From assembly GCA_025331445.1 (NCBI GenBank), contig JAIWNE010000006.1, positions 124,001 through 188,000 of the forward strand: a stretch of 64,000 nt of DNA. The letters run 5' to 3'. Positions within the stretch are counted from its first letter, which is position 1, and each line of letters begins with the position of its first letter. This stretch comes from Blakeslea trispora (lineage: Eukaryota > Mucoromycota > Mucoromycetes > Mucorales > Choanephoraceae). The notes under the pieces are model-generated. The model saw only the letters and a program-made list of their open reading frames with translations. It was not told the origin of the DNA and ran no database searches. Of the stretch, positions 3,410 to 37,423 are shown piece after piece. Position numbers and translations under genes: made by a program.

Positions 3410-6100
3410 ATGTTTGAATACCAACAATCAACTAAAAGAAGATATCCAACTCAGAAACCAAAACCATCACTTCATGCCTTAGACAATGACGAAGAAGAAG
3501 ACAACAGTGACCAAGAATACTATAAATTTCAAGCCAAGAAAAAGCGTCGACTTCGAGCTATGACTCAATCTTCTTCACCTGAACCACAACCTTCTTCAAA
3601 AAAAGGTCGTAAAAAAGCCTTTCTCAATCCTAACCGCAAAGATAAAGCAGGCAGAACAAAGCTCTTCTTTGCTACAACAGCTGGCCATCTCGATAAAGTC
3701 AAAGAATTGATTGAGCTAGGTGCAGATGTTAATTTCAAAGATAATGCTGGTTGGACACCACTTCATGAAGCTGCTTTAAAGGGTCAATATGAAATTGGTA
3801 GACATTTGATTAAATGTGGAGCTGAAATCAATGTCCGCGGATTTGGTTTAGACACGCCTTTACATGATGCTTGTAGCAGTAATTCGCCTGAATGTGTTCA
3901 ACTCTTGGTAGATGCAGGTGCAGACGTGTTTGCATTGAATGAAGCTGAAAAACGACCCATTGATTTGTGCACAGATGAAGCTTGTCAACGTATCTTGCAA
4001 ACCAAAATGAACGAACTTGAACGACTGATTGCTCGAGACAAAGATGGCCGATCATCGCTTCATCGCGCTTGTGTCAACAACAGACTACAGAAGGCTCAGT
4101 CGTTAATTGAACAGGGTGCTGATGTCAACGCAAAGGACAACCAGGATGCTACCCCCTTACACTTGGCTTGTGCTGCAGGACATTTAGATGTTGTCAAACT
4201 CTTGATCGATCAGGGTGGTATTGTCAATATTCTTGGAACCGATAGAGATGATACGCCTTTGCATCAAGCCAGTCGCAACGGACATGTGGAAACAGTAAAG
4301 TATTTGATCTCCTCTGCAGGTGCTGATGTCAACATGAAGGACAAATCAGGCAAAAATCCATACCAAGTTTCAACAGCTTATCCTCTTATACGACAGCTTT
4401 TGACGGCACGCATGGATGAGGTGCGTTTAGAAAGAGAGGCATGTAATGCGTTGGATGAAATTGCTAGCAAAACTGCTCAGCGAAATGAACCAGAACGCCA
4501 GTTAACTAGAGAAGAGAAAAAGATTCAAAATTACATGCGTGTCTTTGCTAACCTCGATGGTAAGCCTCCTCAATCATCTCAACAGCTCATGCAGCAACAT
4601 GACTTTGTTAGTTCAACGGCATCAAAGAAAAAGAAAAGAACAACAAGAAGAAAGTCAGTATCTGTCGAAAGCGATGTATCTTTGCCTCAGCAACGCAAGA
4701 AATCACCCTCTGCTCCTACTAAGCTTGATGCCACCAAGAAAGACACAAGCGGCCGTACACAACTTCACAAATACGCTAAGCGAGGCGATACAGAGAAAGT
4801 AGAGACTCTCTTGGAAATAGGCGCAAACCCTGACGAGAAAGACTATGCTGGCTGGACACCATTACATGAGGCAGCGTTAAATGGACATTATCAAGTAGTC
4901 AAAGCATTACTTCGATATGGTGCAAGCGCTAATCCTAAGGGAGCTGACATGGACACACCTTTACATGATGCTACTGAAAACAACCATTGCGACATTGTGG
5001 AACTTTTGTTGGAGCATGGCGCTGACCCTTTTGCCCGAAATGCACACGATGCAGAGCCGATTGATATTGCTACTGAAAATGAATTTGATGATATCGTGCT
5101 AGTCTTGCAATCAGCTAGTCCTGTCGCAAAAAAGAAGCGTGTCTCCAAAATCAAGCGAGAAGGCAAAGGTGATAAGAATGGAAATCAAGAGAATGAAAAT
5201 GGGGAGGATGAAGATAAGAACAGCAGCTCTATTGATTCACAAACTGAGAGTAAGTTCTTTCAAGTTCAGCTAGACTAAACCTAACTTTTGTAAATAGGGT
5301 TTCCAAAGAAAAGCACCAAGAAGCGTCGTTTGATACAAGCAGCCGATCTTATAAAAAACAAGTTGACTGATGATGATGAGCAGCTACCTACAGATGAGGC
5401 TTGTTCAGATTCTCAATTGGTTGCTGTCAAATTAGAATCGGACGTAGAAGATGTTGTTCCCTCTATAAAACGAAAGAAATCACACAAGAACAATAGCGAT
5501 GATAGCAAACATGATATGGAGAAGGGAGAACTACAAAAGCAGAGTACAACAAGATCTTCACCCAATGCTGTTCAACAACGCTATATTCCTTGTAAAAAAA
5601 GCATATATAACAGTATGGTTCCGCCTCTTCATTCACCCATTCATACACCACCACCAGATCATTGGAATGTCACCAACAAGGATTTTTATTCCCCTCTTTA
5701 TACTGTTCAAATGTTCAATGCGCCCAATTCAGATTACTATGTAATTGATCTACAAGTCAGTCTGTTGCTTGGTATACCACTTGACAAATTTTGGTTGACA
5801 TATCCATATCTCAATCGCAAAATAATCCATACAGAAGGTAAAGCACGACTGTGGTGTACGTTAAAGCAAATAATTCATGAAGAGAAAGAACAATTCGTAT
5901 CAAGAACTCTTTACTTTATTGCTCTTGACGATGTGCTTCACTTGATCAAGCGTGACTTTAATCATCTCAGCGCAAACTTAATCACAATCACTTTAGATAT
6001 TGGTTATTCTGATGAGTCAGTGCTTGTGAGAAAACATTATAACCTTCCACCCAAGATTGCCATGAAAATGAAAAAGTGTGGTTACCAATTTCAGCATTAA
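3410..6100 (+). CDS. Ankyrin-repeat nuclear protein, Hos4/ANKRD11-like
   Basis: Two exons (3410-5249, 5298-6100) give 880 residues. The intron (5250-5297) is GT-AG and joins in phase. The N-terminus is basic and Ser/Pro-rich with NLS-like KKKRR runs. Ankyrin repeats fall in three blocks (about residues 75-200, 205-320 and 440-570). Blocks one and three share the same unusual units: AGWTPLHEAAL, then DTPLHDA, then a P-I-D motif. The linker and the region after block three are Lys-rich and charged. The last 190 residues form a separate globular-looking domain I cannot name. The DYAGWTPLHEAALNGHY style of repeat is typical of Hos4, a subunit of the yeast Set3 deacetylase complex, and of animal ANKRD11/12, so a chromatin co-regulator role is inferred. 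The 3' end converges on the b5-reductase gene 88 bp away. Confidence 0.75.
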
Positions 6101-9602: not shown

Positions 9603-11067
9603 ATGGATTATTCAAAGCATATTAGTGAAGCCAGCAAAGCTAGAAACCCTTCAGCCAGTAAAGTGTTTTTTTTTAAGAAAAAAGATCAAAAGTTTTTATT
9701 GATCTTTCTCTTCACCAATAGTTCGTGCTCTTATGCCTTACATGAATCGTAAAGACATTGTAAGTGATCATCATATATTCCAAGAGATAAAATAAGCTTA
9801 TTCTATACATCCATGATTTAGATCTCTCTTGGTGCAGGCCAACCTAATCCAGCTACATTTCCCTTCGCTAGCATGTCCATTACATTGAAGACTGGTGAAC
9901 ACATTCAATTAGATGACGACCTTTTCAATCGTGCCTTATCTTATGATCTGACTGTAAGATCCATTGAGAGCTGAACATGGTAAAAGAGGAACAAGCTGAC
10001 TTTTGTTCAATTTTTAGGCTGGACAACCTGGCTTGAATGCTTGGTTATGTGAGCTTCAGCGTCTTGAACACCGTCCACCTGTCGAATTTGATTTATCCAT
10101 CGGTGCAGGCTCTCAGGATTTGTTGACAAAAGCTCTGGAGATGATGACCAATCCCGGAGAAGCTCTGCTAGTAGAAAACCCTACGTATACAGGTGCTTTG
10201 AGCTTTTTGGATAACTTGGATTGTACCTTGGCTGATGTTGCAACAGACGATTTGGGCATTGTGCCTGAATCATTGGAAGCCATGTTAGCTAACTGGCCTG
10301 AATCGAATCCCACCCGAAACAAAAACCAACCTCGTCCTCATTGTCTATATACAATTCCTTCTGGAGGTAACCCTACTGGTGTCACTGCCAGCTTGGAGCG
10401 TAAGAAAGCTGTATATGCCATTTGCTCAAAGTACGATATCATGATCCTTGAAGACGATGCTTATTACTATCTCCAGTTTGACACACGTATTCCCTCCTAT
10501 CTCTCATTAGACACAGACGGCCGTGTCTTGCGCTGTGACAGTATGAGTAAGATCTTGTCGTCTGGTCTTCGTTTGGGTTGGATCACAGGGCCCAAACCCT
10601 TGATTGAACGTATCAATATGCACACGATGGTCACTAATTTGCAACCCTCTGGTGTTCCTCAAGCCATGGTCTATGCCCTTTTAGAGACTTGGGGTCATTC
10701 TGGTTTCTTTGCTCATGTTGATCGAGTTGCTGATTTCTATCGTGAAAAGAGAGATCAGTTTTGCGAATGTTTGACACGTCACTTGAAGGGACGTGCCGAA
10801 TGGGCCATGCCTACAGCTGGTATGTTTGTTTGGCTCAAACTGTTAGGTGGCATTGAAGATTCTTATGATCTGGTCATGAACAAGGTTATTAAAGAAAATG
10901 TATTGGCTATTCCTGGTTTGGCCTTCATGCCTCAAAAGAATAAGAATCCATACGTACGTGTGAGTTTCAGCAATGTGACAAAGGAAGACATGGATGAAGC
11001 TTTACGTCGGTTGGCGTCTGTTATTGATAAAGAAGCTGAACTCAATGGTGCTAAAATAGAAGCTTAA
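9603..11067 (+). CDS. Aminotransferase class I/II, Aro8/kynurenine-aminoadipate type
   Basis: Four exons (9603-9657, 9722-9759, 9822-9953, 10018-11067) give 424 residues. This is a PLP-dependent fold-type I aminotransferase. ISLGAGQPNP, the SGGNPTG motif, LEDDAYYY and the PLP-lysine motif DSMSKILSSGLRLGW (Lys at about residue 253) are all visible. The family includes yeast Aro8/Aro9 and human KAT II/AADAT, which transaminate aromatic amino acids, 2-aminoadipate and kynurenine, so a role in aromatic or lysine metabolism is likely. The first ATG lies directly before the conserved domain and no mitochondrial presequence is evident. The 3' end converges on pacC 86 bp away. Substrate cannot be fixed from sequence. 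Confidence 0.9.
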
Positions 11068-12851: not shown

Positions 12852-14059
12852 AGAAATATGTGTATGAGAGAAAAATAAATAAAAAGGAAAGAAAAGGTTC
12901 AGTTGGGACTAAATGACGCTATGATGCGTATTTATACATTCACATTTTTTTTTTTAAAACGTGCATTTATGCCAAGCCACTGTATTAAAAATCATGCAAA
13001 TACAAAAAAAAAAAAAAGATACCATTTGCCTTTTAATTCGATTGTATTGTTTAATTACTCTTTTTACCCATGTTGAGTTATCCATGAGAGTCATAAGGAT
13101 TTCTCTTAGAAAAAAAAAAAGCAAAAAAAGTGAGAGAAAAGTAAAAAAAAAAAAAAAGGGGGGGGGATGTTGACTCAACTAAAGGACCCTTTGTCATAGA
13201 AACACAAGCAAGACTAGCCACATTTCTTGGCAATGTGTTACTCTGTCCATTTGATTCTCCGACATTGGCGCATACTGGCGGGGCTGCTGTGTCTGGGGGC
13301 TACTCCGCCGGTAATAAGCAATACGATTGGACACTGTTAGCCAATAAAAGTTGTTATTACTGTCGCTCATTTAAGTTTTTGCTTAATGGTTTTTGAATGA
13401 GTGGGCTCAAACAGAATATTACTAAAAACTATAAAATTTTCTCTCTGCTACCAAAGAAATTCATCAAGAAAATTCCAGTGATTGCAAGCTTATTCGATTA
13501 CAAATAAGAAACGAAAGTGAGTAAGACAATCAAGCTAATGAAGTAAGCCTTGTCTCAGAAACGAAGCCAGTAACGCCCTGCAATCCTTACAAGAGCTGGA
13601 TTTCGTTTAAGGAACATTATTAGAGGAGTCAATGAAAGATATGCCTCCAATTAACATCGTTTTGGCCGAGTATTTTGAGGACCTTCTGACTTGCTTGACA
13701 TAATGAAAAAAGTCCTTCTGAAAATGGAAAAGTGCCCCATTTATGGAATCAAGTTTGTGATTACAGAGTAATGTGATTATTTGGGTAAAAATCATCAGCA
13801 ACATACATTTAAAAGGCTTCAATTTTTAAAATCTGAGATGTTTGTCTCACACAAAGAGAACAAAGAATATACAATCTATCATATAAAAGGCCAAAAAAAA
13901 CTTGTTTCTGTTTTTCTCTTTGTCTCTGTTACCTCATCTGTTAGATTCTTCTAATACATCTAATCTCTTATTGCTGGAAGGAGTAAGATATATTTTATTC
14001 TGACCTTGATATATCTGCCCCACTAATATGCTATGAATAGATCTAATCCTTCTTAGGCA
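12852..14059. other. Intergenic between pacC and the Fanzor-like gene
   Basis: No intact gene. It holds poly-A tracts, a G8 run after poly-A near 13160, a short GC-richer patch (about 13265-13315), and a weak frame at about 13680-13770 that may be decayed coding sequence. The distal part acts as upstream DNA for the gene starting at 14060. Confidence 0.45.
13882..13889 (+). promoter_or_regulatory. Candidate TATA box for the Fanzor-like gene
   Basis: TATAAAAG lies about 170 bp before the ATG at 14060. A GT-AG pair (13983-14056) between them could be a 5' UTR intron ending just before the start codon. Position and match are the only evidence. Confidence 0.3.
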
Positions 14060-17000
14060 ATGTCCTACCGCAGGGCTCTACAAGATACATTCTATTTGGG
14101 CGGTCGTTATACTCCTGCGCCCCAGTTGTCTGTCAATGTGCAACAACAACCATCTACCATAGCTCCTGGCATGAGGCGTGCATTTGAAATGTCTGTAGAA
14201 GAATTCCATGACCTGTTTTATATCGTAGCCCAAGCCAAGCTACGCGATAACATTATCCGTGAAAAAAACAAAAAGAAGCCAAACTACTCTGCTCTCAAAG
14301 CCAAAACTCTTGCTGGTCAAATTCCAAGAGGACTGTATGCTGATATGGATAAACATGCTAACCTCGGTTTGCGAGAATCTGCAAACAGATTTCAAAATGA
14401 TAATTCAGTGTCTCGAGCAATTGATCTTTGGAGAAGATATGTACAACAAAATTTTGATGTCGTCCAAGAGTCTGTAAGCAATCCTACTACTGAAGCAACT
14501 AGCTCTACTCAAGCCATTGAACCTTCTTCAGAAGAGCTCCCTACCGAACCTGCTTCCTTTGTTGTTACCGAAGAATATTTTGAAGTCTGTACTGCGTATT
14601 TTCCCTCGTTGATACGAGATGATCTTACACCTGAAGTTAGACAACTCTTTGATACTAAGCTTGCTGAACTACTGCCTCAGACCTCCAACTTTATCAGTGA
14701 CTTTCAAACAATCATGTTTATGATAATGTCCTGTTTCCGAAGCCATACTTTTGCTGTTCGCAATGGAAAATCAGTATTTTGATAGATCAAATGGCTTTCA
14801 AATACAAAGCATCTTCCCAAGTAACTTTCAGCTACAAGATACCTTGATTTTTTCTGCCTCTCCATATGCTTCCAACTTTCTTGCCTCTCCTGATGCTAAT
14901 GACATTCCTTTTCTCTTCACTGACCGACATATTCATTTTTTGAAGTCTGGTTTTTATGGTGTTCGTGGCTTGAAAACAAAGACCAAAACAGATTATCCTT
15001 TGAGAACCCTGTTAATGGAAGCCATCTCTGACTCAGTCAGCCAATTCATCCAACCAAAAAACACTCTTCATATGGCCTGCTATGAGTCTGCACTGACTAA
15101 CTATATTACCAATCTATCTGTCATGTGGGGTGATAACAAGATGATCAACATTCTTCTAGACAAGCTTTTGTTAGTGTTGCTACGTATTCATTTGGCTCCT
15201 ACAAGAGAAAAAAAGCATCAAGAATATATCAAGTCTATGAAAAATGCCTCTAAAGAAAGAAAAGACGAAGCTGCAAAAGAAAGTAAGACAGAAGCAGGTC
15301 ATCCTACCAACTGGTTTCCACTGCTCCATCAAAGCAGAAGAAGGTTAATAGTCCGCAAAGAACGTTACCGGCTTGCAAAATACAGACAAAAATCAAAAAG
15401 CTCATCATCTGCGTATATGAAGCAAAAATGGGAAGCTCGAGCCCAAAAAAGTGAGAAACGTATCGCAACATACACAAAAGCTCTGGAAACTAAGGTATGT
15501 ATGCCTACAATCAACGGGAAATCAGTCACTCATCTATGTCTATTATACCATTTTCAATAGGAACCCAAAACTACTTCTGCCAAGAGAAAACAACCTTCTG
15601 AGCCTGATGTCGCCGAAGGTTCTGAGCGTCCAAGAAAGATCCCTGCTATCCAACATCCCTCTACTGCTTCTGCTGAGGCTGGTCCCAGTATGCTACATAC
15701 TAGTCGCATGGAGTTAGATGTTCCCACACAGCCATACGAAGGAAAAGGGAAAGCACCAATGAATCCCCAAAGCGATCCGAAACCTGTTACTTTCCAACCA
15801 CCCATGACAGAAGAGACACGCACTATTCCGCCTGCTACACCAGAAGACTACGCAAGCATGGATGAAAATGATGTTGTCGAAGAAGAGGATGCTATAAAAG
15901 ATGCTGATGATGATGCTCCTAGACACAGGTTGAATGGCTTAAAAGGCTTTATCAAGAGCTTGCTGTTGCGTAATGAAGATTTGCCTAACGAACAAGACTT
16001 GACAGGTCTGCGCTCTGACTTGAATGAGAAGGAAGCAGAAGTGTGTTTGCTTATACTACGACGCTTAAAACCTTACATCCCTTCAAAGAAAAACTACTCT
16101 CATATTGGCTACCAGCTACCTTTTGTAATTCTTGCGAATGATTTGCTGCGCTGTGCTGGCTATGCTAAGTTCTGTCGTAAAATCTGCCCAATGCCTGTTG
16201 CATCTCAAAAGTCCTTTAGACTGGATACACCTTCGTTATTTAAGACATTCTGCGAGCATGGTGACAACAAAATGACATTTTTTGGCTATGACAACAGAGT
16301 CATTAGGGGCCCTTTGGAATACATCAATCATAAGGATGCTGTCTTCAATGCCTTTTTCAAGATTGATAGAATACAACAGTTGTGCAGACGTCGTAAATTG
16401 GTTTTTGCTCATCATCTTCATTTGCTGCCTGGTGGAAAGTATGTCAGAATCCTTGGTATCAAAGAGAAAGCGCCTATGAAGCAGACTGCTGATGTAACAG
16501 GCCAGAAGCGTCAATACAACATTCCTGAATCGACTTGGCAAGATATTCTCAATGAGCGTGAAAAAGACAATGAAACCTTGAAACAAGAAGTCGATGAACT
16601 CTTGGGGAACACCAACCGTTTGTCAAAGCAGTTGAAAAACAGATTTAAAGAATTCAGCAATCAAGATTTTAGTTTGCAGATCAAAACCGCCAAGCAAGGC
16701 TGGAAAAACCCACTTAATCTAGAACCTGAAGTTGCTGTTGTGCAGGGTAGTGATTCTGAAGAAGAGGCAGGTGTATGTTGTCCTCAAATTGGTGAATGTA
16801 TGACTGGTGTTCAGAGACGAATTGCAGACATTGTCAGAACTATACAAGCTCATATCCGACGTCCGCATGCCAACAATGATGAAGAGTTGATTACTGCTGC
16901 TAGAAATGAGATCAAGGTGTACATTGATGGGTTGAAGGCTGATAGAAGTAGGTTGTTTCTGGCTATTCAACAAGTCAAGTCTGAACTGGCAGACCAGCGA

Positions 17001-18140
17001 TACCAGCTGTATATCCGCAGAAGAGCATTAAATTTGACAAAAAGAGATCAAAAAGCGCCCAGACAGACCAGAGAACTGCAGCAGATTACGGGCCAGCCTA
17101 CGATTGCTAAAGCTGAAGATATGCAACTGATGGGTGACGCTGATACTATTGCTAAAAATTTCACCTTCTCCGGCACAGACAATGGTGTTGTCAAAATGAC
17201 TGAATCAGTGCCAGTTTCCATTCAAAAATACGTTTATCATCTGAAGCTCTACAACAGGTTTTCTGCTTTGACTACTACTGAAGAACAAGAAGAAGAATTT
17301 CAGCCTTTGCCGTCGTCCACTGTCATCAACGCTGAAGACATTGACTTTGGAAGCCAAAACTTGAACTACAGACACAAGCTTGCTGCTAAAAAGGCAAATG
17401 ATGTGAATTTGATTGAAGCTGAGAAGGTGTTGTCCGAAAAAAGTTTATCCAATGCAAGTTCCGTAGAAGCAATCCAGACAAACTACCGATTTTTGCAAGC
17501 CAATAGACAGACAGTCAGGAACTTTTATGATTCTCCACAAAGATCTAAACAGGCCATGAAGCAAGAATACTTTACCAAGAAAATCAAGGACCGCCTTTGC
17601 TCTCGCGAAAGGGAATTTACGAATCCTAAACCGAAAAAGAAAGATGTCAAGAAGAAAGGGAAAGAAATACAAAGAAAGAACCTGTTGATGATGATTGGTG
17701 ATCGTGGCTTTGGGATAGGTTCCAGAATTAGAGGACATCTTAGATATGGTGGTATTTGGAAACAAGATCGGCATGCAAGGTATACGACTGTCTGTATAAC
17801 AAACGAAAACTATACTTCCCAGACTTGTGTGTATTGCTTCAACAAGCTCACTCATGCAAGATCGCGCATTATCAAACAAGACAAAATAACTTATAGAGAA
17901 ATCAAAGGTACCTTTATCTGCTATAATTCCAAGTGCCCTTCTGCTCGTCACGGTCGTAACACAACCTCCAGAGATAAAGTGTCTGCCCTTGCTATTGCCA
18001 TCTCCGGAATGACAACTTTGCTCTTCCAAGAAACTCTCCCTGTATTTTCTAGAACCATCAGTCACTCTAACACTGAACTGCACAACAAAACAGCATCCTT
18101 CTGTACAAGAAGCGGTGTATTGGCTGCACGCGAAGCGTGA
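14060..18140 (+). CDS. Fanzor-like (eukaryotic TnpB) RuvC/Zn-ribbon nuclease, frameshifted
   Basis: A large open region reads in two frames: 14060 to about 14778, then about 14727-15494 joined to 15561-18140 through a 66-bp GT-AG intron (15495-15560). The two parts overlap, and the switch fits one extra T in TTTT at about 14776-14779. Combined length is roughly 1,340 residues. The C-terminal part shows a RuvC-type set in order: Asp in FSGTDNGVV (codon 17178), GDRGFGIGSRIRG, Glu in ITNENYTSQTC (codon 17805), zinc ribbon C-x2-C (17826-17837) and C-x4-C (17919-17936), and Asp in TSRDKVSALA (codon 17973). This is the layout of TnpB and of Fanzor proteins, RNA-guided DNA nucleases carried by eukaryotic mobile elements. 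The long N-terminal half is unrecognised. A GT-AG pair at 18152-18208 after the tandem stops may be a 3' UTR intron. Guide RNA and element ends were not identified. Family call good; activity unknown. Confidence 0.68.
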
Positions 18141-21100
18141 TAAGCAAGGTTGTAAGTGTTACACAAACTCTAATTGCTTTAAATTGCTAAACCTTCTCTC
18201 CCCCCCAGACATGACAGCCTTGCCCGCATACTACAAAACTGCAACGTTACACCAATCAAAATCAATATTGTATTTTTGGAAACCTTGCTTTGTTTAAAAA
18301 TGATATGGTATTATCATGATTCCTTGGCACTTATAAAAAAGAAAACATGGGGGTCAAAAAGCTTTATATAAATATGAGTCTTGCATAGTTATCTTTCTTC
18401 AAAACTTTGCATTTGCAAGATATTATCTGTATTTAAAGTTGAATATGACTGGCAATAACTGAGAAAGGGTATCCAAAATATCTAACAAAAGCTTTATCCC
18501 TATAATAATGATACAAACTATGAAAGGACAATTTACTACTTTAATATCAAAGAGTTATAGAGGGAAACATGTTAATTAACCAATTAATATATGTCTGCAG
18601 AGGTTGTGTAAATATCAGTCTTTAAAGATTGCCTTCAATCGCGTGTTAAATTTGTTATTCTTTGGATTTTGAATAGTTTATTATGTATATGCTCACAGTA
18701 AGATGAACAGATAAAAAGGTGTGTCTATACAGTAGCAACCAACATCTCAACTAAGCAAAATAAAAAAAACAGCTTAATTCAAGCTACTCTCATAACATTT
18801 GAAAGCTTCAATTTCTTTTCCACTTTTCTTTACTCTACTTTAGATTGATTGTGAAAGCATTAAGTTGAAATGTGTGTCAGTATACGAGGTATTGTTACTA
18901 CTTCTTGCTTAGCATATTTTCTGTGCCACAATCTATTGTTCTGATTGCTTACATGAAACGTATTTTTTTTTTTAAGTGAAAGATGTATTCCATCATTGTT
19001 GTTGTAAGTCTGTCTTGACTATATCCAAGCACAGTCTGATGGTTTCTATAAAGCTTTATACCGCCCAGATAACTACAACCCTAATGACTACAATGATTGA
19101 CAGAAGAATTCTGAAAGACAAAAAAGCTAAAGCGCATATATTCATCAAGATGATTGGGACTGGAAACAACTGATTCAATCTAGGTGTGTATTATTTATGA
19201 ATCTCAGATAAAACAACTATTGTTTGTCTACATTGTAATTATCAATATGATACAGAATAACATGGCAGAAACCATTCATTGGTAGAAGGCGATATAGAGC
19301 TTATGAACACTGGTTCAATGTCCTCAAGAAATCAAGCTTGTTGAGTTTACCGCTCAATTGATAAGTGGACGTAATATCATAAACTTGTACAAAGCCATTT
19401 GAGCAATCAGTTTTCAGCAAAAAAAAAAAAAAAAAATAGCTAATCCTTACGTAACCAACCATAAAAAACAACCTTTAATTTCAACTGCGGACTAAATGAC
19501 AACAATCATTGTAAATGATCTATGTCAAGCGTTTCTCTTTTCACACTAAGGATAGGCCATTTTCTATCTTCTTGCTAATGTCATTATGTATCTAGAAAAA
19601 AGAGCAAAGATATACAGCAGCAGCAATTGATATATTATTTTATTGATTAATGATGTGGTCAATCTGCTTTATAAAGCAAGGGAAGATATAATGTTCTCTA
19701 ACTATTAACAACAACAGATGTGAGACACTCAAAGTCTACAAGGCTGTTCAGTAGACTATGCGATATTTGCTTGGATTAATGTATTCACTACTTGAATAAC
19801 AGGCAGAAGAGTGTATATAGAAGAAAGATATGATTGTTGCTACATATCTATATAAATTTAACTCTATGATTCCTACTATTCATCCTTTCTTTCCAAAGAT
19901 AGGGCAAGCCATCCATTCAAGATCTAAAGACTATCTGAAACAGAAACAATCTTCACACTTTAGACAATTTGACTTTAAAGGTAAGTTGTACAGTTGCTGA
20001 TATGGCTTTGAAAAACGGTACACTCGTAGCAAAGTCCTAAAGAAGATGTTGCCTTGGCATGTGTTGTACAAGAAATACTATAAACATTTGAATTAAGTGT
20101 AGAGCAGAGGAATACTTTATTGATCAGGCACTATATCCGCTTTTTTATCCACTCGTCCCCTAAAGTTAAAAATTCGTTAGCCATATCAGTCACTGTCACA
20201 ACAACAACAAGCTACCTAAAGTGAATTAACAAAATTAAGCTTGACTTTTTTCTTTTTTTATTGGTCTTTATGCCTGTTTGAAGCTGATTCTTTTTGCTTT
20301 GCTTTTGTGTAAAGGTTAAATGTAAGTTCCTGAGTGATTGCTCTAAGCTGGCTTTAGAATGTAAAAAAAAGTCAGTTGGCTCATCAGATTTGTCTTGGCG
20401 TGTGTGCACCAACATGTTTTTACTTTAGCTGTTGACGGTGAAATGCGTTCTTCTTTTTGCATGTGAGTTGAACTTTTTTTGTGGTGTTGAGATGTCTGTA
20501 GAGCCTACGATTGCTCTCCCCTTCAGAAAAGAGTAGTGTATGGAAATAAGCTCTCTAACCTTTTTGTTTGTTAGTTTGCTTTGTACATATAAACCCTTGA
20601 TGATAATCTTATTTACTTTAACAACATTTGGCTTTCAATCAATTCCTTTTTTTTTTTAAACGAATTAGCATATCTGATTAGAGTGTCAAGCAAACAGCAA
20701 TAGTTTCTTTTGGTACAATAAGAGTTGAAAGAAAGAGACATTCACTCCTTCTTACTATACTAGAATGAAAATCGATTGTTTATATGCTCCTGTTCTTGCT
20801 ATAAAACGTTGTAGACTTACAATAAAAGGGAACTTGTATCATTCGGTCTATTTTGAGCCTAATGAGATTCTTCTTCTTCTCTTGAACAGTAAAACTTTGA
20901 CTTGATTAACAAAAGAGACATGTATGTGCAAAAAAGCCTGTAAGATTAAATTCATGCAATAGTTGAGCTAATTCAATGTCAGAACATGAAATCGCATACT
21001 TGTTTGATTTATAGCATAATTTCTCTGAGTTTCATGTATGTTTTATAGTGTTGGTAAGCCAATATGAGCCTATGGAATGGTTAGTAGAGTGATAGAAGGA

Positions 21101-23034: not shown

Positions 23035-25413
23035 ATGAAGAGATTCCTTGTCATTTGTATTTGGCTCTATATGCCTTATGCCTTTATGCAAGAATTACAA
23101 GTCTTGTATGATCGTAAAGTTGATTTCGTTATTCAAGACAACCTAAAGAACTTTGAACAAATACCCCTATGGTAATCAATGCCTTTTGTAATAACTATGC
23201 CTTTCTCTCTGACAAAGTCTAGGATGAGTACCTATTCTGCAGATAATGGTACATGGAGTGATGTAGATTACACTACTGGTTGTCTTGCAAGAAGAGCCAA
23301 TTGGCCTGCTCAGCAACATTTTGTTCGTATATGTAAGTGAATTTTTTCCTTAAAGAAATAATACCAATGGAAACTGATGGTCTGTCTGGTAGTAACATTA
23401 GCAAGTCAATATAAATCTCAAAATGATTCTCAATATCTGCCCATCATATCAAAAGCAATGGATTTCTGGTTCAGCCAAAACTATCAACCTGATACATGTC
23501 TCGATCAGGGTGGATTCACCAATAGTACTTGTCCATGTGGTACACCTGGTTTCTGGAACACGAATTGGTTTGGACAAGTAAAAAAAGAAAGAGTAAATTT
23601 ATATTGGTTATGTGACTTATTCAAAAAGGACTAGATGATTTTGATGCCACGCCTTGTGTCGAATGTATGTTTGTTACTTAAATCCAATTTATCAGCCACT
23701 CAGCTAAGCAACTGCACCCAAGTGAGTCAGCGAGTGTATGATCGTATCGATAGTTATGTCATTGGCATCGGGCTTATGACCGGAGCCAACATGTTGGATG
23801 CAGCTACTGCTGTCCTTAATCTGGGGCTCTTGACAGATAACTCAACAACCGTCAGTCAGGCTCTAAGCCGTTATTATCCTCAAACTGAGATTATTCCAGA
23901 AACAGGAGCCGATGGTATCAAACAAGATGGGTCGTACCTTCAACACGGAGCTCAGCTATACAATGGCAATTATGGTAAAGACTTTATCAATTCTGTTGTT
24001 GTCCTCTACAGCCAAACAGCCAACACTCAGTTTGCACCCCCTCCTTCTTCTCAGCAGGCTTTTCAGACATTGATGGAAGGTACCGAATGGATGATTGTAG
24101 CAAATGCAACCAATTCTAGTTTGTTGTGGGAGTACAGTACGATCGGACGTATGGTTTCCTTTATCGCTTCAGATAAACAAGCAAGTGGTGGCGTGGCCCT
24201 GAACTTGACGCGCGTTGTACAGGCTACATCGAGCTGGGCCAATGCTTCTGCTATTCGTCAGATTGTGGATCGACTTACTGACTTACGGAACCAGACCTAT
24301 CCGGGTCAGGGACAACGGATGGGCACACGTGCCTTTCCTGCTTCTGATTACCTTGTGCATCGAAATGGATCCTATGTTACTACCCTCAAAATGTTCTCGC
24401 GTCGCACATCTAACTCAGAGTGTAATAACAATCAAAACCCTTTTGGTTTTCATCTCAGTGATGGTGCTATCTATAGCTATATTGATGGCGATGAGTACCT
24501 TGACAGTTTTGCTGCTTGGGATTGGAATCTTGTGCCAGGTACAACAGTAGATTATGGCTCAACTCAGTTGGGATGTAACTTTACACAACACTACGGCAAC
24601 ACAACATTTGTAGGTGGCCTCTCTGCAACTGAAGGAGGTATGGCTGTCATGCACTACTTGAATCCAATGACAGGTGCCCTTACTTGGGAAAAGACCTTTT
24701 ATTTCTTCCATGGGTTCTATGTGGTACAGATAAACTCAATAAAGCAATCCTCAAATGCGAGTGTGGTGACTACACTCGATCAATCCAACCTGAAGGGTGA
24801 TGTCTATCTGAATGGTCAGTTGCTTTCAGAAGATAATGTGGTTAACCGAGATAAGCAATGGCATGTATGGCATAACAGGATTTTGTATTCTGTTGTCAAT
24901 CAGACTACATCATCCCCACATCTCCTCAAGATCAACACAGCAAGTCATGAAGTCAATGATTGGTCTACCATTGGTATATCTCAAGGACGTGCTACACAGC
25001 GATTGTTTACAGCGACTGTAGAGCATCATCTGCTTCAAGATTTGACTTATGTCGCACAGCTCAACACAGATAAAAAGCAGGATGAAGACATTTCATCATT
25101 CGTTCGACTTATAGAACAAGAGGACAGTCTCAAAGGTCATGTACGTGGAGCTTACCAGGTCAAAGAAAATGTTTTGGCTCTGGCTTTTTGGACAAAAGGT
25201 AGTTTTAGTAGTCCTTGGCATGACAACTGGACAATTCAGACAGACCAGCCCATTCTTATTTGGTTGGCTCCTGAGGATAAGGGCTTTTTGCTTACAGTAG
25301 CAGATCCTACTCAGCTCTTGTCAACTGTGCGTATTACAGTTGCTTCTCAAGAATTCCGAATTGAATTACCCCAAAATGAATATGCTGGCAGTAGTGTATC
25401 AACCAAAGTATGA
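23035..25413 (+). CDS. Secreted polysaccharide lyase family 8 (hyaluronate/chondroitin/xanthan lyase type)
   Basis: Four exons (23035-23171, 23223-23332, 23393-23577, 23635-25413) give 736 residues. The first 18 residues form a signal peptide (MKRFLVICIWLYMPYAF). PL8 enzymes cleave uronic-acid polysaccharides by beta-elimination. Family signatures visible are the helical-toroid region with NTNWFGQ, the QDGSYLQHGAQLYNGNYG block (about residues 241-258), and the central beta-sandwich with NPFGFHLSDGAIYSY and WDWNLVPGTT. Many NxS/T sequons fit secretion. Length matches PL8 (about 700-800). The polymer substrate cannot be told; a fungal or animal uronan is plausible. It converges on the next gene with 32 bp between stops. 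The introns show it is an established fungal gene and not bacterial contamination. Confidence 0.85.
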
Positions 25414-32227: not shown

Positions 32228-35200
32228 TTACGGTAATGGTTCATGACGCTCGAAAGTGCCATGGACATGAAATAACAGCCCGTACAGGCCGGGGAAAAGA
32301 CCCTTGTCGCGTTGGGACTCGTTTGTATTAAGCGAATCACCGTTAATCTCAAGGAGAATATCCCGGAACGCACGTTCCTGGATATTCAGCTCAAGTCTTG
32401 TAGAGGACCAAGTTGTATTGTCGAACAAGACTCGGTTACGCTCAAGCCAAATAGACCAGAGGGTATAAGCCCAATGCTGGTACATGATCGTTTGTAACAA
32501 CTCCTGATGTAAAAAGAAGGGGTTACCTTCCGCACTCTCAGGTATGTTCATTAAGTACAGTGATCTCCAAGCATCCCACTGGGTATTATCCCTAGTAAGT
32601 GGAGTGTTGAAGAGGATAGAATAAGTCTGCAAGAAGGTATCTATGATTCGAGATACCCGCTCACAAAGGTAGAACAAATGCTGCGGCGTCTCCAACGAAT
32701 TGGAGCATAAACAGTTTCTTTCAGACACTGGTCTGCCCTCGTGTCTGTGTCTAGTGGGTAAACATCCACGTTGGAGTTCCCACAGAAATACGTGAACCGA
32801 AGGTTGGACTCTAAGTTTCCAGATGGTTTCCCAGGGGTTCCCCGTGGTCTGTCCAAAAGGAAAGGTCGCTTTTATTTCCTTCAGTTGTACTTTGGCCTTT
32901 GCCTTCATTTGAATCAAAAGCTTATAGATGGCAGTAGGGCTTTGGAGCAAGTCCAGCCTGACTGACTGGTCATCTAACATTAAGCCCAAAGACCCTTCCG
33001 CAGAAGTAGTCTTGGGCGAGATCAGTTGTTGACGCATATCAAGCGGGATTCGTTTGGATATAACGTCCCTGATGATATGCCAGTCGCGAGGTTCTGACAA
33101 GCAGACCTCTGATTTCCAGGTTCCATCTGCATTAATGGTTTCATGCCAATAAACAGGGAGGACCTTTTTCTTTAACAGCGGGCGGATTGTTGACCAGATC
33201 CGACTCTCGCCTATCTCATTGAGAGAAGTATACCACAAGGGTAATTCCCACACAACGCCTACTTGAATGTGCTTGTGAACATTGCGACCCTCCAATGAAG
33301 TCCAATGGTTCAGCACGGCGGTCCAGTACGGTGGCCAACTGGTACTGATTCCGCCTAATTGTTTGGCATGTTGGAGCCAGGGGCTTACAAAGTAAGTCTG
33401 GACAACATCCATAGGGTAGCGAAGCCTATATTCAACCCGACGGTGCCACGAATGCATAAGCATTTGGGCCCACCTTTCGCCGGGGTTTTGTATAAAGTCT
33501 CTTATCGCTAAGAGCTTATACGCATCGATCAATGTTGAAAGCAGCGGGAAGTTCAAACCTCCCTGACCAGGTTGCAATCCTAGTACTATCTGATTCACTT
33601 TGGCACGCTTACCCTGCCATATGGCTTGAGCCAATATTTTCAGGCAAGTGTCCATTAGACTAGAAGACATGGGTAGAAATCTAGCCAAGAACAAGAATTT
33701 GGGTAGGATTAACATCCGTAGAATGATAATCCGTCCCTGCAGTGAGAGGGCTGATAATCGGAGGGCAGCGATGCCCGTTCTGACCTTAGCCACTATAGGT
33801 TCCCATGCTGAATTAATATTCAGCTGCCAACCAACTGGTACGCCAAGGTGTCGGACCCAGCTTCCCGGTGGAACAGGCGAAGGAAGATCAGTAGGAATGA
33901 TACCAACAAGTGGGGATGCAAGTATCTCTGTTTTATCAGTATTAAAGCGAGCGCCAGAGGCACTACAATATTGATCTAAACTTCTTTTGAGTGCGGGATA
34001 TTCCTGCCAATGGCTTAGGCCAACAACAGTGTCATCTGCAAACATCGTATAAGTCATGGGATCACTACCTGGGATAGGGATACCAGATAATGTTGTGTCC
34101 AATAAGGACGCCAAAGTCTCCATAACAAGAACAAAGAGTATGCACGAAAGTGGATCGCCCTGGCGGACACCCCTTTTAATCTTAAAATTCGTGCAAAGCT
34201 TACCATTCACCAAAATTTGGGAGGAAGCCTTATGGTAAAGCGATCGGATTGCCCGTCGAAGATTCGAGGGTATCCTGAAAGCCTTTAACGTTTCCCATAG
34301 AAATCCGTGGTCTATCCTATCATAGGCCTTTTCCTGGTCCAAGAACAGAAGGATGCCTTGCGCTTCCGGATTCTGCTCAATGTGATGTAAGACAAGCTGT
34401 ACATCACGAATACTGTTACCAATATTACGTCCCGGTAGGAGCGCATTTTGATACTTGTTTATATAAGGCTCTATTGCCCTGGAGAGTCTTAACGCAAACA
34501 CTTTAGTGAAGATCTTGTAATCGACATTCAGCAAGGTGATAGGTCGATAGTTCTTCAACAATGTAGGGTCTCCCTTCTTAAAAAGCAGGACGACCATACC
34601 TTCTATAAAATCTTTAGGGGGCTTTTCGCCCTTAAGTAGCGAGTTTATGGCTTTTGCCAATAAACCTGCTATTTGTGGACCCATTGCTTTATAAAATTCG
34701 ATACTAAGTCCATCAGGGCCAGGACTTTTTCCTGTCGGCAAAGAAAGAATGGCGGACCAAACTTCTTTTTCAGTGACAGGCTCCTCAAGCGAAGCCATCC
34801 CTTCCTTGGTCAAACCACGGCGGGAAAGGTTTCTCTTGAGCGCCTGGATAGGAATCATTCTATCCTGACGAGTAGGCGTTTCTTTAGCATACAACTGGGA
34901 ATAGAATTCCCTTGTATATTTGCCAAGGTCTGGTGAAGGAGTATCTGCTTGAGTCCTTCGTAAGGCTTTGAGAATGGTCGGGGTTCCCCGCGGCTTCACC
35001 TTTTTCAAGGTATAGGGATTGCCTTTATTCCCTTTCTCCCGCCATCTTTTAAAGTTCGCAGTCCTCACTTGGCTACCGTATGAATCAACGGCTTCGGCCA
35101 TTTCTTCGCAGACAGCCTCAGTGGGACGACCCTTACTCGCAAGTCGGGTATATTTCGTATACAAACTCTTAATCTTGGAGTTAAGCTTAGCACCTCGCTT

Positions 35201-36142
35201 CCTTTGCTTACCCATACAAAGGTTTCTCAACTCATCTTTAATAGATAACCAGTCAGCCAAAGTCCAATCCTTTTTCAAGGCGGCTTTGGAAGTGGTATCA
35301 GGCACCTTTTCGAGGATTTCCTCCACGAAGTCTTTCTGTAGAATCCTAGGATTCAGCCTCCACGGTCTAGCTTGACCTACCTTCTCGTGGATTTTCAGGC
35401 TTAAGCGTATTATATGATGATCAGAATGGTGGAAAGGAATTGTATCCCATTTCTCTACCCAATCCGACCATAGTTCAGGAATGTAGATTCGGTCAATTCT
35501 ACTCTTTGCTGCTGGAGTTGACTGATGATAAGTAAAACTGACAGAGTCAGAGTTACGAAGCAACAGCCACGCATCAGCACAGTTTGCAGAAGTAACAAGG
35601 TTAGTCAGTTCTTCCTTGCCTGGTTCTGCGGTTCTTTGCGGGGATCGGTCGAAACCATATTCCACACAGTTAAAGTCACCAAGAATAACAAAGGGCGCTT
35701 CTTCTTGAGTGTTTTCCAATATGCGTTCTAGTTTCTTAAAGAACGCTCGCTTCATTGAAGCGACGTTGGGTGCATGTACCAACATTACATTGAAGGACAA
35801 TTCCCCATGTCGGACCTTTAAAGCAACCGCACCCTTTGGGGTTGGCATACCAACAAATTGCTCGACATGTAACTTTTCGTGTTTTTCATTATTTCGCCAA
35901 AAGACTGCAAATTCCGAAGAAGATGCTGCACTTTCGGACGCAAGTCGTTTACCCTCCCAACCTGGGTTGAGCTGGTTCACTTCTTGCCACGCACTATCCG
36001 TTAGGTGGCATTCACTTAAGAAAACAAATGGGAGCTTGAATGCCACCATAGTTGATTGGAGCGCTTCGAGCTTCTTTCTTCGCCTACTGGGGCTGGCTAA
36101 GCCCTTCGCATTTAAAAATACAAGATCTAATTTAATCGTCAT
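32228..36142 (-). CDS. LINE ORF2: endonuclease-reverse transcriptase
   Basis: One intact frame of 1,304 residues. An EEP/APE-type endonuclease spans residues 1-245 (LVFLNAKGL, FLSECHL, VILGDFNCVE, DRIYIPE, HSDHHIIRL), which nicks the target and primes reverse transcription. The reverse transcriptase (about 470-760) shows GKSPGPDGLSIEFYK, NYRPITLLNVDYKIFTK, FLDQEKAYDRIDH, RGVRQGDPLSCILF and the catalytic YTMFADDTV at about residue 700. Near residues 1130-1170 lies a zf-RVT zinc-binding module (RNCLCSNSLETPQHLFYLC). No RNase H domain is seen. All catalytic motifs are intact, so this copy could be active. Confidence 0.93.
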   Translation of the reverse strand: MTIKLDLVFLNAKGLASPSRRRKKLEALQSTMVAFKLPFVFLSECHLTDSAWQEVNQLNPGWEGKRLASESAASSSEFAVFWRNNEKHEKLHVEQFVGMPTPKGAVALKVRHGELSFNVMLVHAPNVASMKRAFFKKLERILENTQEEAPFVILGDFNCVEYGFDRSPQRTAEPGKEELTNLVTSANCADAWLLLRNSDSVSFTYHQSTPAAKSRIDRIYIPELWSDWVEKWDTIPFHHSDHHIIRLSLKIHEKVGQARPWRLNPRILQKDFVEEILEKVPDTTSKAALKKDWTLADWLSIKDELRNLCMGKQRKRGAKLNSKIKSLYTKYTRLASKGRPTEAVCEEMAEAVDSYGSQVRTANFKRWREKGNKGNPYTLKKVKPRGTPTILKALRRTQADTPSPDLGKYTREFYSQLYAKETPTRQDRMIPIQALKRNLSRRGLTKEGMASLEEPVTEKEVWSAILSLPTGKSPGPDGLSIEFYKAMGPQIAGLLAKAINSLLKGEKPPKDFIEGMVVLLFKKGDPTLLKNYRPITLLNVDYKIFTKVFALRLSRAIEPYINKYQNALLPGRNIGNSIRDVQLVLHHIEQNPEAQGILLFLDQEKAYDRIDHGFLWETLKAFRIPSNLRRAIRSLYHKASSQILVNGKLCTNFKIKRGVRQGDPLSCILFVLVMETLASLLDTTLSGIPIPGSDPMTYTMFADDTVVGLSHWQEYPALKRSLDQYCSASGARFNTDKTEILASPLVGIIPTDLPSPVPPGSWVRHLGVPVGWQLNINSAWEPIVAKVRTGIAALRLSALSLQGRIIILRMLILPKFLFLARFLPMSSSLMDTCLKILAQAIWQGKRAKVNQIVLGLQPGQGGLNFPLLSTLIDAYKLLAIRDFIQNPGERWAQMLMHSWHRRVEYRLRYPMDVVQTYFVSPWLQHAKQLGGISTSWPPYWTAVLNHWTSLEGRNVHKHIQVGVVWELPLWYTSLNEIGESRIWSTIRPLLKKKVLPVYWHETINADGTWKSEVCLSEPRDWHIIRDVISKRIPLDMRQQLISPKTTSAEGSLGLMLDDQSVRLDLLQSPTAIYKLLIQMKAKAKVQLKEIKATFPFGQTTGNPWETIWKLRVQPSVHVFLWELQRGCLPTRHRHEGRPVSERNCLCSNSLETPQHLFYLCERVSRIIDTFLQTYSILFNTPLTRDNTQWDAWRSLYLMNIPESAEGNPFFLHQELLQTIMYQHWAYTLWSIWLERNRVLFDNTTWSSTRLELNIQERAFRDILLEINGDSLNTNESQRDKGLFPGLYGLLFHVHGTFERHEPLP

Positions 36143-36232
36143 GACTACGATAAAAAGATTTTATAGTAAAGGAGTTCTTACTAAAGGAAACCCGAAAGTT
36201 ACCTGCTAATGGTTCTGGGATTGACTCAGGCT

Positions 36233-37423
36233 CTATCCCGAAGGATCGCCCGTGGTTTCACCACCCTCATTATCTTCTTTTTGAGTAGGGTCCTCAGAAG
36301 GCTCAAGTGGATCCACATCCATCTTGTCCTTCTTGGACTTCTTCCTCTTCACTGCCCTGCGTTCAGCACGCCTGACATTCCTTTTTTGCTTCGTTGTAAG
36401 TCCAGCGTACTTATCCTCGCCAGCGGGTAAGGAGCGTTTCACTCCAGACACACTAGCTGGTTCTTCAGCTGGCTTGTCTTTACTGGATTCACCCCCAGAA
36501 GATGGTGTGGCCTTCTTCAGCGTAGGGCAGTCCTTGCGGACGTGACCCCTTTGCCTACAAAGGAAACAGCCATCAACGGGTTGAGTGCGAACCCGCATGT
36601 TGTACATCTCGAACTTCGGAGGCAAATCATGAACTCCCTCGCCAAAACGAATGGTAAGGGTCCACTGATCGTCCAAAGTGGCACCGTTTCTAGAAACACG
36701 TTGGGCCCGAAGAACAGTCCCATACTGAGTCAAGGCACGCTTGATCTCAGGGAAACTCGACAATGGCGGCACGTTTGAAAGAAGGTAGCGCACACCATTG
36801 TGTCTTTCGGGGTCATTTGGATCATAAAAATTAATTTCATGACCGTCTATATGGAAAGTACTCGCAAGTACCTTCTTCTTTTGGGCAGCATTGAGCTTGA
36901 GCACTACTGTCTTACGACCTTTTTGCGATGCTGGATAAGGTGATCCGCGCATCCAAGGTTCTTCGCCGATAACATCACGAATGGCTCTATGGAAGGCCAC
37001 TTCGTTCACGACGACGCCGTCTGGGATAGAGGCAATGATGGCTCCCGCCTTCATCGTTCTATCATTCAAGCTGAGGTTTTCGAGTCCCTGCCTCATAATC
37101 TCAACGAATTGAGGTTCTGAGGGGGTAACCGCCGCTTTCGCAGTGGCTGTGCTCGGGGCCCCATCAACCTGCATTGCTGTAGGCAATGCTTCTGTTTCCT
37201 GCACTGGTTCAGCCGAAGCTTGTCCGCGTGCGGATTTCTTTGCATGAATACTACCACTTGTCCCGGGAAGAGGCGGGAAAGCAGCAGCATCGACTTGTGC
37301 TTCAGGTAAATCGGCCGAAGCCAATTCGCCCGTGGCGACTGTGGTTTGGGGAGTGTCCTTCTCCTGGCCTTGGTTTGACGAGTTTCCTTCTCGGGATTTT
37401 TTATTGAGGTTATCCTTCCTCAT
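36233..37423 (-). CDS. LINE ORF1: nucleic-acid-binding protein with CCHC zinc knuckle
   Basis: One frame of 396 residues, ending 90 bp before ORF2. The N-terminal third is Ala/Pro/Gln-rich and disordered. The middle (about 105-280) looks like the RRM-like domain of LINE ORF1 proteins. CFLCRQRGHVRKDC at about residues 284-297 is a perfect CCHC zinc knuckle. The C-terminus is Lys/Arg- and Glu-rich with NLS-like KRKKSKKDK. It should coat the element RNA with ORF2. The start ATG opens the frame just after the GC-rich leader. Confidence 0.88.
   Translation of the reverse strand: MRKDNLNKKSREGNSSNQGQEKDTPQTTVATGELASADLPEAQVDAAAFPPLPGTSGSIHAKKSARGQASAEPVQETEALPTAMQVDGAPSTATAKAAVTPSEPQFVEIMRQGLENLSLNDRTMKAGAIIASIPDGVVVNEVAFHRAIRDVIGEEPWMRGSPYPASQKGRKTVVLKLNAAQKKKVLASTFHIDGHEINFYDPNDPERHNGVRYLLSNVPPLSSFPEIKRALTQYGTVLRAQRVSRNGATLDDQWTLTIRFGEGVHDLPPKFEMYNMRVRTQPVDGCFLCRQRGHVRKDCPTLKKATPSSGGESSKDKPAEEPASVSGVKRSLPAGEDKYAGLTTKQKRNVRRAERRAVKRKKSKKDKMDVDPLEPSEDPTQKEDNEGGETTGDPSG

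Follow-up and report, generated by a model that had tools for sequence, protein, structure and literature searches.

A multi-copy inverted-repeat transposon of Blakeslea trispora whose only gene encodes a divergent nuclease of predicted Fanzor fold, and the one-sided motif beside its insertions

Elements of Mucorales that carry Fanzor1 alone, with inverted repeats and target-site duplications, are already known, and Bao and Jurka described ten Fanzor1 families in Mucor circinelloides (PMC3627910). What function TnpB/Fanzor proteins have in the eukaryotic transposons encoding them was left as an open question in 2013, in a work that had put forward a helper role of the Tn7 kind and considered whether these proteins could be a transposase of a new type (PMC3627910), and the role of SpuFz1 in its own element was still given as unknown in 2023 (PMC10432273). 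In the SpuFz1 and SfAV cases, a right-end RNA takes its guide from the flank, and the target-adjacent motif (TAM) lies at the duplication (PMC10432273, PMC10711439). Here, we describe a locus in a stretch of 64,000 nucleotides of Blakeslea trispora (assembly GCA_025331445.1, contig JAIWNE010000006.1, positions 124,001 to 188,000 of the forward strand), called the window from here on and the source of all positions given below. The gene at 14060-18140 (+ strand) is the only one found in an inverted-repeat transposon that was recently active, and we regard it as close to certain that this locus combines a transposon with a nuclease of Fanzor fold; in addition, the insertions of the element usually follow a 12-bp motif on one side only.

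The residues of the nuclease are read on the + strand in the following order: the first RuvC aspartate in GTDNG (17178-17180), the RuvC glutamate in TNENYTSQTC (17805-17807) with the GDRGFGIGSRIRG block standing ahead of it in the same frame, a zinc ribbon of the form CxxC ... CxxxxC (17826-17936), and the last RuvC aspartate in SRDKVSALA (17973-17975). The two zinc pairs are CVYC (17826-17837) and CYNSKC (cysteine codons at 17919 and 17934). An earlier note, made from the letters of the window, had named all these residues and the GDRGFGIGSRIRG block and had recognized in them the TnpB/Fanzor order; each was found at its place in one frame, and the order was confirmed. In exon-2 numbering they are D540, E749, TSQTC 752-756, and RD805, with 208 residues between the aspartate and the glutamate, the latter being six residues ahead of the first cysteine (E749-x6-C756), as in the “alternative” glutamate position described for Fanzors (PMC10711439). 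The first aspartate, the glutamate, the four cysteines, and the last aspartate are invariant in all seven family members of alignment A2, and the first and last aspartates are kept in 9/9 open exon-2 copies of the genome; therefore, we do not consider them a chance occurrence. Exon 2 also contains the superfamily motif of Bao and Jurka (2013), D-X(125,275)-[TS][TS]XX-C4 zinc finger-X(5,50)-RD, whose regular-expression form finds a match in 6 of 13 proteins; the remaining 7 consist of an exon-1 piece and of models that are truncated or degenerate.

The predicted fold is of the RuvC type (RNase H-like) with a zinc ribbon, and its nearest solved folds are the Fanzor1 structures, so that the structure prediction proposed in the earlier note came out in favor of its assignment. 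Fanzor, TnpB, or Cas12 proteins occupy the first 14 Foldseek rows and all 50 VIA rows, and no DDE transposase is found among the VIA rows listed. The profile check proposed along with it failed to reach the cut-off, with PF07282 (Cas12f1-like TNB) giving an E value of 0.15 for the window protein and 0.033 at best among seven members, and being listed for two of the seven. Pfam, NCBIfam, and PHROGs profiles run on the exons returned nothing of note, sequence searches against solved structures including Fanzors gave no match or noise, and IMG/VR scans gave no relatives. Likewise, hhalign against a shallow zinc-ribbon profile of canonical Fanzors from the same genome (L001-L003) aligned TSxxC with a probability of 4% (E 0.01), which lends no support. 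Judging from its predicted structure, the protein is a very divergent RuvC nuclease of TnpB/Fanzor fold with a long N-terminal extension. We refrain from classing it among the Fanzors proper because the DPG fingerprint, described as “near exclusively” present at RuvC1 of Fanzors, is replaced by DNG in all seven A2 members and in at least 90% of the 40 rows of alignment A3.

With the Fanzor1 cases SpuFz1, PpFz1, and GtFz1, the window family has in common the predicted RuvC fold with zinc ribbon, the glutamate six residues ahead of the first cysteine, and the presence of one gene in an inverted-repeat element that also exists as gene-less copies. In contrast, it differs from Fanzor1 in having DNG instead of DPG, the 208-residue aspartate-glutamate spacing, a second zinc pair of the form CxxxxC, an N-terminal part longer by several hundred residues, and no sequence-level match; furthermore, its 12-bp target motif lies 15 bp away from the insertion point, whereas Fanzor1 has a short TAM right at that point, and no guide RNA was seen for the window element. 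Canonical Fanzor-type zinc ribbons exist elsewhere in this genome (L001-L006, six PF07282 matches above the cut-off), and L001-L003, which read like VDEYLTSQIC...WNRDVNAAKNI, are likely another Fanzor1 family.

The gene is made of exon 1 (14060-15494, 478 codons in intact copies), a 66-bp intron GTATGT...CAATAG (15495-15560), and exon 2 (15561-18140, 859 codons), which encodes a helical part and the RuvC/zinc-ribbon nuclease domain, all on the + strand. The intron is supported because the annotated Choanephora protein P0012 reads through the same GT..AG junction (...ALETK/ELKT...). The length of about 1,340 residues first proposed agrees with the predicted product of 1,337 residues in four copies examined where both exons are open (L010, L013, L016, L017); the copy in the window is disrupted, and its gene appears as three open reading frames (ORFs) rather than one, given the intron and a frameshift in exon 1 that is common to two other copies. 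No second sense ORF of at least 150 residues is present in the ORF listing of the window element. Across nine stop-free exon-2 copies, three of them with the exon-1 frameshift, the variable codons are 40 non-synonymous and 41 synonymous with sites at 3.66 to 1, and the ratio of non-synonymous to synonymous polymorphism per site (pN/pS), uncorrected for substitution bias, is 0.23; the nuclease half is under purifying selection, and therefore the protein was maintained during the spread of the copies. As to the large N-terminal part, it had been said to lack any match, and this held in profile and fold searches except for a helical hairpin at the end of exon 1. Because the exon-1 structure model is poor (predicted local distance difference test, pLDDT, of 60.8) and this hairpin alone was matched, no claim is made for that part.

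Other genome copies, whose comparison the earlier note had proposed, were found in number, and by aligning them to the window, the ends of a multi-copy element became sharply defined at 13277 and 18224. The span 14060-18140 therefore corresponds to the gene, while the mobile unit is larger, 4948 bp (13277-18224, +), and includes a 5' region without a long ORF (13277-14059, +). Its 23-bp terminal inverted repeats, GGCGGGGCTGCTGTGTCTGGGGG on the left (13277-13299, +) and GGCAAGGCTGTCATGTCTGGGGG on the right as read on the - strand (18202-18224), are imperfect, with 18/23 positions agreeing by eye, and are bordered by the 8-bp duplication CGCATACT (13269-13276 and 18225-18232). Allowing up to 2 mismatches, a genome search with the repeat pattern gave 147 matches, and one with the reversed pattern gave 0. 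Exon 2 has full-length matches at 12 genome places (96-100% identity, 9/12 stop-free) and at least 60 matches when partial and more distant ones are included. Of 27 element pairs, 22 have an 8-bp duplication, perfect in 20 of these, and the misses are C113, C107, C1:873264, C234, and C246; here, the right flank was the best of several regular-expression hits per locus, and the 22 matches were checked against the flank sequences. Flanks nearly identical to those of copies on other contigs and lacking a matching duplication (C113/C45, C1:873264/C74, C107/C242:206149; L100, L099, L040, L035, L022, L018) suggest ectopic recombination between copies or assembly joins. The left flank of the window element occurs once in the genome, so no empty site was shown.

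Short derivatives also carry the duplication, namely L071 (470 bp) and L068 (722 bp, with one mismatch in the duplication), and L071 has a perfect one although it retains only 27 bp of the right end; therefore, these derivatives moved with help in trans. Movement of the same sort is suggested by the three copies that have one common exon-1 frameshift and occupy different sites. Besides family A, to which the window element belongs, there is a family B, the loci covered for the two families being the window element, L042, L059, L027, and L028. Between A and B, the exon-2 proteins are about 50% identical, while the left end of about 365 bp is 93-100% identical and the right end of about 136 bp is 90-100% identical in one of the B copies and 74-100% in the other. 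Such near-identical ends around a middle of about 50% identity, with sharp borders, constitute a module exchange between transposons. L119 and L120, more distant exon-1 matches considered as a third family with other ends, turned out by eye to be degenerate, family-B-like copies.

The target-site motif of the window copy, TTTGATTCTCCG (13250-13261, +), stands in the flank outside the element. In 58 sequence-distinct left-end flanks, the consensus ATTnAAAYTCCG is found at positions -27 to -16 and is followed by 15 bp, the last 8 of which are the duplication. The flank table was limited to flanks 50 or more bases long whose repeat carries no more than 3 substitutions, and flanks with identical last 25 bases were entered once; it yields 58 left and 32 right ends, compared with the 147 pattern matches; L024 and L025 are counted separately in the 58 and look like one duplicated site, and these two and a few others (e.g., L083, L086, L088), where the motif is absent at the fixed place, were kept in the counts. 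With leave-one-out scoring, the best 12-mer was exactly at -27 to -16 in 46/58 left flanks, and 43/58 scored at least 8 bits, a score reached by 0.03% of window 12-mers, while the 32 right flanks gave 6 scattered matches above 6 bits. The motif holds 11.9 bits in family A (CCG in 12/13), 9.8 bits in B (7/10), and 6.7 bits in the rest (19/35), and shuffled flanks never exceeded 1.46 bits in 200 rounds; at -8 to -1, family B (n=10) holds 3.2 bits, A 1.2, and the remaining flanks 1.1. As a control, 15 end flanks of one family of Mutator-like elements (MULEs) with 8-bp duplications scored below zero at the motif place, one of them scoring 7.2 elsewhere. Therefore, a one-sided motif directs the insertion and fixes its distance and orientation. 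The motif looks similar to a tRNA B-box, an explanation rejected since ARAGORN found no tRNA in 24 loci, and a motif copy within the element acting as a fixed guide was not convincing either, its best score (9.9) falling within the coding part.

The description of the protein as RNA-guided found no support in the sequence, no structured RNA being detected at either end. Rfam gave no match at gathering scores, the fold of the 3' end (18050-18247) was no better than shuffles (z -0.66), and the conserved left 440 bp or so gave a covariation term of -0.02 over 14 sequences, and in 4/86 pairs both partners had changed in at least one sequence; the right repeat is able to pair with the stretch directly after the stop codon. 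A TAM was sought in insertion sites, not cleavage sites, and these showed scant conservation at -8 to -1 and the motif at -27 to -16. Because of this scant conservation at the duplication and the lack of a detected structured RNA, the canonical Fanzor model, with a right-end RNA guided from the flank and a TAM at the duplication, is not supported here as far as the sequences indicate.

We propose instead that the protein may be the target selector of its own element, and we give the whole statement, that is, transposon gene, Fanzor-fold nuclease, and target-selector mechanism together, a probability of roughly 0.45. DDE transposases have target preferences centered on the duplication, and the motif found here calls for an asymmetric reader because it is one-sided and 16-27 bp away. 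The protein would bind ATTnAAAYTCCG in the way that TnpB, Fanzor, and Cas12 read a one-sided TAM or protospacer-adjacent motif and cut beyond it, and this binding would fix both the position and the direction of insertion; the conserved D/E/D would make the target cut, nicking the top strand 13 nt and the bottom strand 21 nt past ATTnAA, and the 8-nt 5' stagger between the nicks would become the 8-bp duplication. The analogy is with the Cas12k transposons (type V-K CRISPR-associated transposons) and with TnsD of Tn7, which also insert in a single orientation and at a set distance relative to a recognized site. Cas12k is a TnpB-derived target selector with a dead RuvC, a guide RNA, and encoded TnsB/TnsC partners, whereas the acids of the window protein are intact and no TnsB/TnsC partner gene was found in the element. 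Known Fanzor cuts are not all of the 5'-overhang type, blunt and 3'-overhang cases being described (PMC10432273). Two facts weigh against the target-selector proposal: families A and B, in spite of exon-2 proteins only about 50% identical, have near-identical ends and the same motif, so that ends and protein are inseparable as the cause of the motif, and hAT, MULE, and KDZ transposases are plentiful in the genome. A further version, which we consider rather unlikely, is that a eukaryotic nuclease of TnpB lineage has here become the targeting, perhaps the whole transposition, enzyme of an inverted-repeat transposon, one that recognizes a TAM-like motif of 12 bp with no variable guide and places its own element at a constant distance and in a single orientation.

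The sharing of ends by different protein families and the abundance of other transposases in the genome would also fit a passenger role, a serious though tentative possibility in which an RNA-guided Fanzor-like nuclease re-cuts empty sites and thus retains the element, while an unrelated DDE transposase from another element moves it and owns the motif. This agrees with the published view of inverted-repeat Fanzor1 elements as captured or non-autonomous (PMC3627910, PMC10711439), and SpuFz1 too has Fanzor-less “ghost” copies (PMC10432273), like L068 and L071. However, in 30 loci examined out of the 147 matches, no native second transposase with these repeats was found, the end-adjacent sequence matches the family of the window element over at least 71 bp in 30/30, and the other transposase or retroelement ORFs look like later inserts (by eye in translation, LINE-like, that is, of long interspersed nuclear element type, in the interior of L044 and Tc1-like in L052 and L058). 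A MULE near a right end on C216, considered as transposase partner, is an insert in a deletion derivative and has its own ends. Nor was a conserved TAM seen beside the duplication, where the information is far below that of the motif in A, B, and the rest alike, or a structured RNA detected.

That same lack of another carrier of the ends in the 30 loci, together with the intact D/E/D and the selection on the sole long gene, would also be expected if this RuvC enzyme were a complete transposase that excises, targets, and joins the element alone, which we find improbable: to our knowledge, no TnpB or Fanzor joins DNA. Moreover, TnpB appears dispensable for the movement of IS200/605 and IS607 (PMC3627910). 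Far less probable still, and already disfavored, is a divergent DDE transposase of hAT, MULE, or KDZ type with a zinc insertion and no TnpB descent. Some transposases of these types have an 8-bp duplication and a comparable protein size, and a MULE of this same genome also makes 8-bp duplications, but no hAT, MULE, or KDZ Pfam match was obtained at E<=10 in three exon pieces, and the Foldseek and VIA rows mentioned above belong entirely to Fanzor, TnpB, or Cas12.

Among the nearest described elements are those of Mucor, Rhizopus, and Phycomyces (MCi, ROr, and PBl; PMC3627910), which are likewise from Mucorales and have a Fanzor-type gene, duplications, and, in part, inverted repeats. Their duplications are of 9 bp (MuDr-like), 11-12 bp, or 6 bp, compared with 8 bp here, and their descriptions as consulted do not mention an 8-bp duplication combined with an orienting motif at a distance, the comparison being by description and not by sequence (PMC3627910). 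Some relatives of the window family may already count among the ten Mucor circinelloides families, with a possible overlap of protein family. What we consider new is, on the one hand, the very divergent DNG/alternative-glutamate family with its large N-terminal part, and on the other, the orientation-specific target motif at a fixed distance; the openly accessible main texts searched, including PMC3627910, PMC10711439, PMC10432273, and PMC11423790, held no description of the motif or of the Blakeslea family. The family represents a deep Mucorales branch of TnpB/Fanzor nucleases missed by the profile libraries used here. Because the element is multi-copy, recently active, and limited to one gene, and both its ends and its target rule are sharply drawn, the part played by such a nuclease in transposition becomes directly testable. 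Should the motif indeed be read by the protein, eukaryotes would have in it a new sort of targeting or insertion enzyme.

Other features were observed in the genome and the window. A MULE family has been recently amplified (L106:2483-6297 and L107:1914-5726, 99.7% identical over 3.8 kb), with inverted repeats of about 160 bp starting GACTAACAC and 8-bp duplications. The window also contains a LINE-type element (32231-37423, -) with a 1,304-residue protein having endonuclease, reverse transcriptase, and zf-RVT domains, and the ORF ahead of it has a zinc knuckle slightly below the cut-off. A polysaccharide lyase family 8 gene is present at 23635-25410 (+) of this Mucorales genome, and apparently ordinary host genes encode an ankyrin-repeat protein (3410-5275, +), an aminotransferase (10033-11064, +), and a chitin synthase (44405-45766, +).
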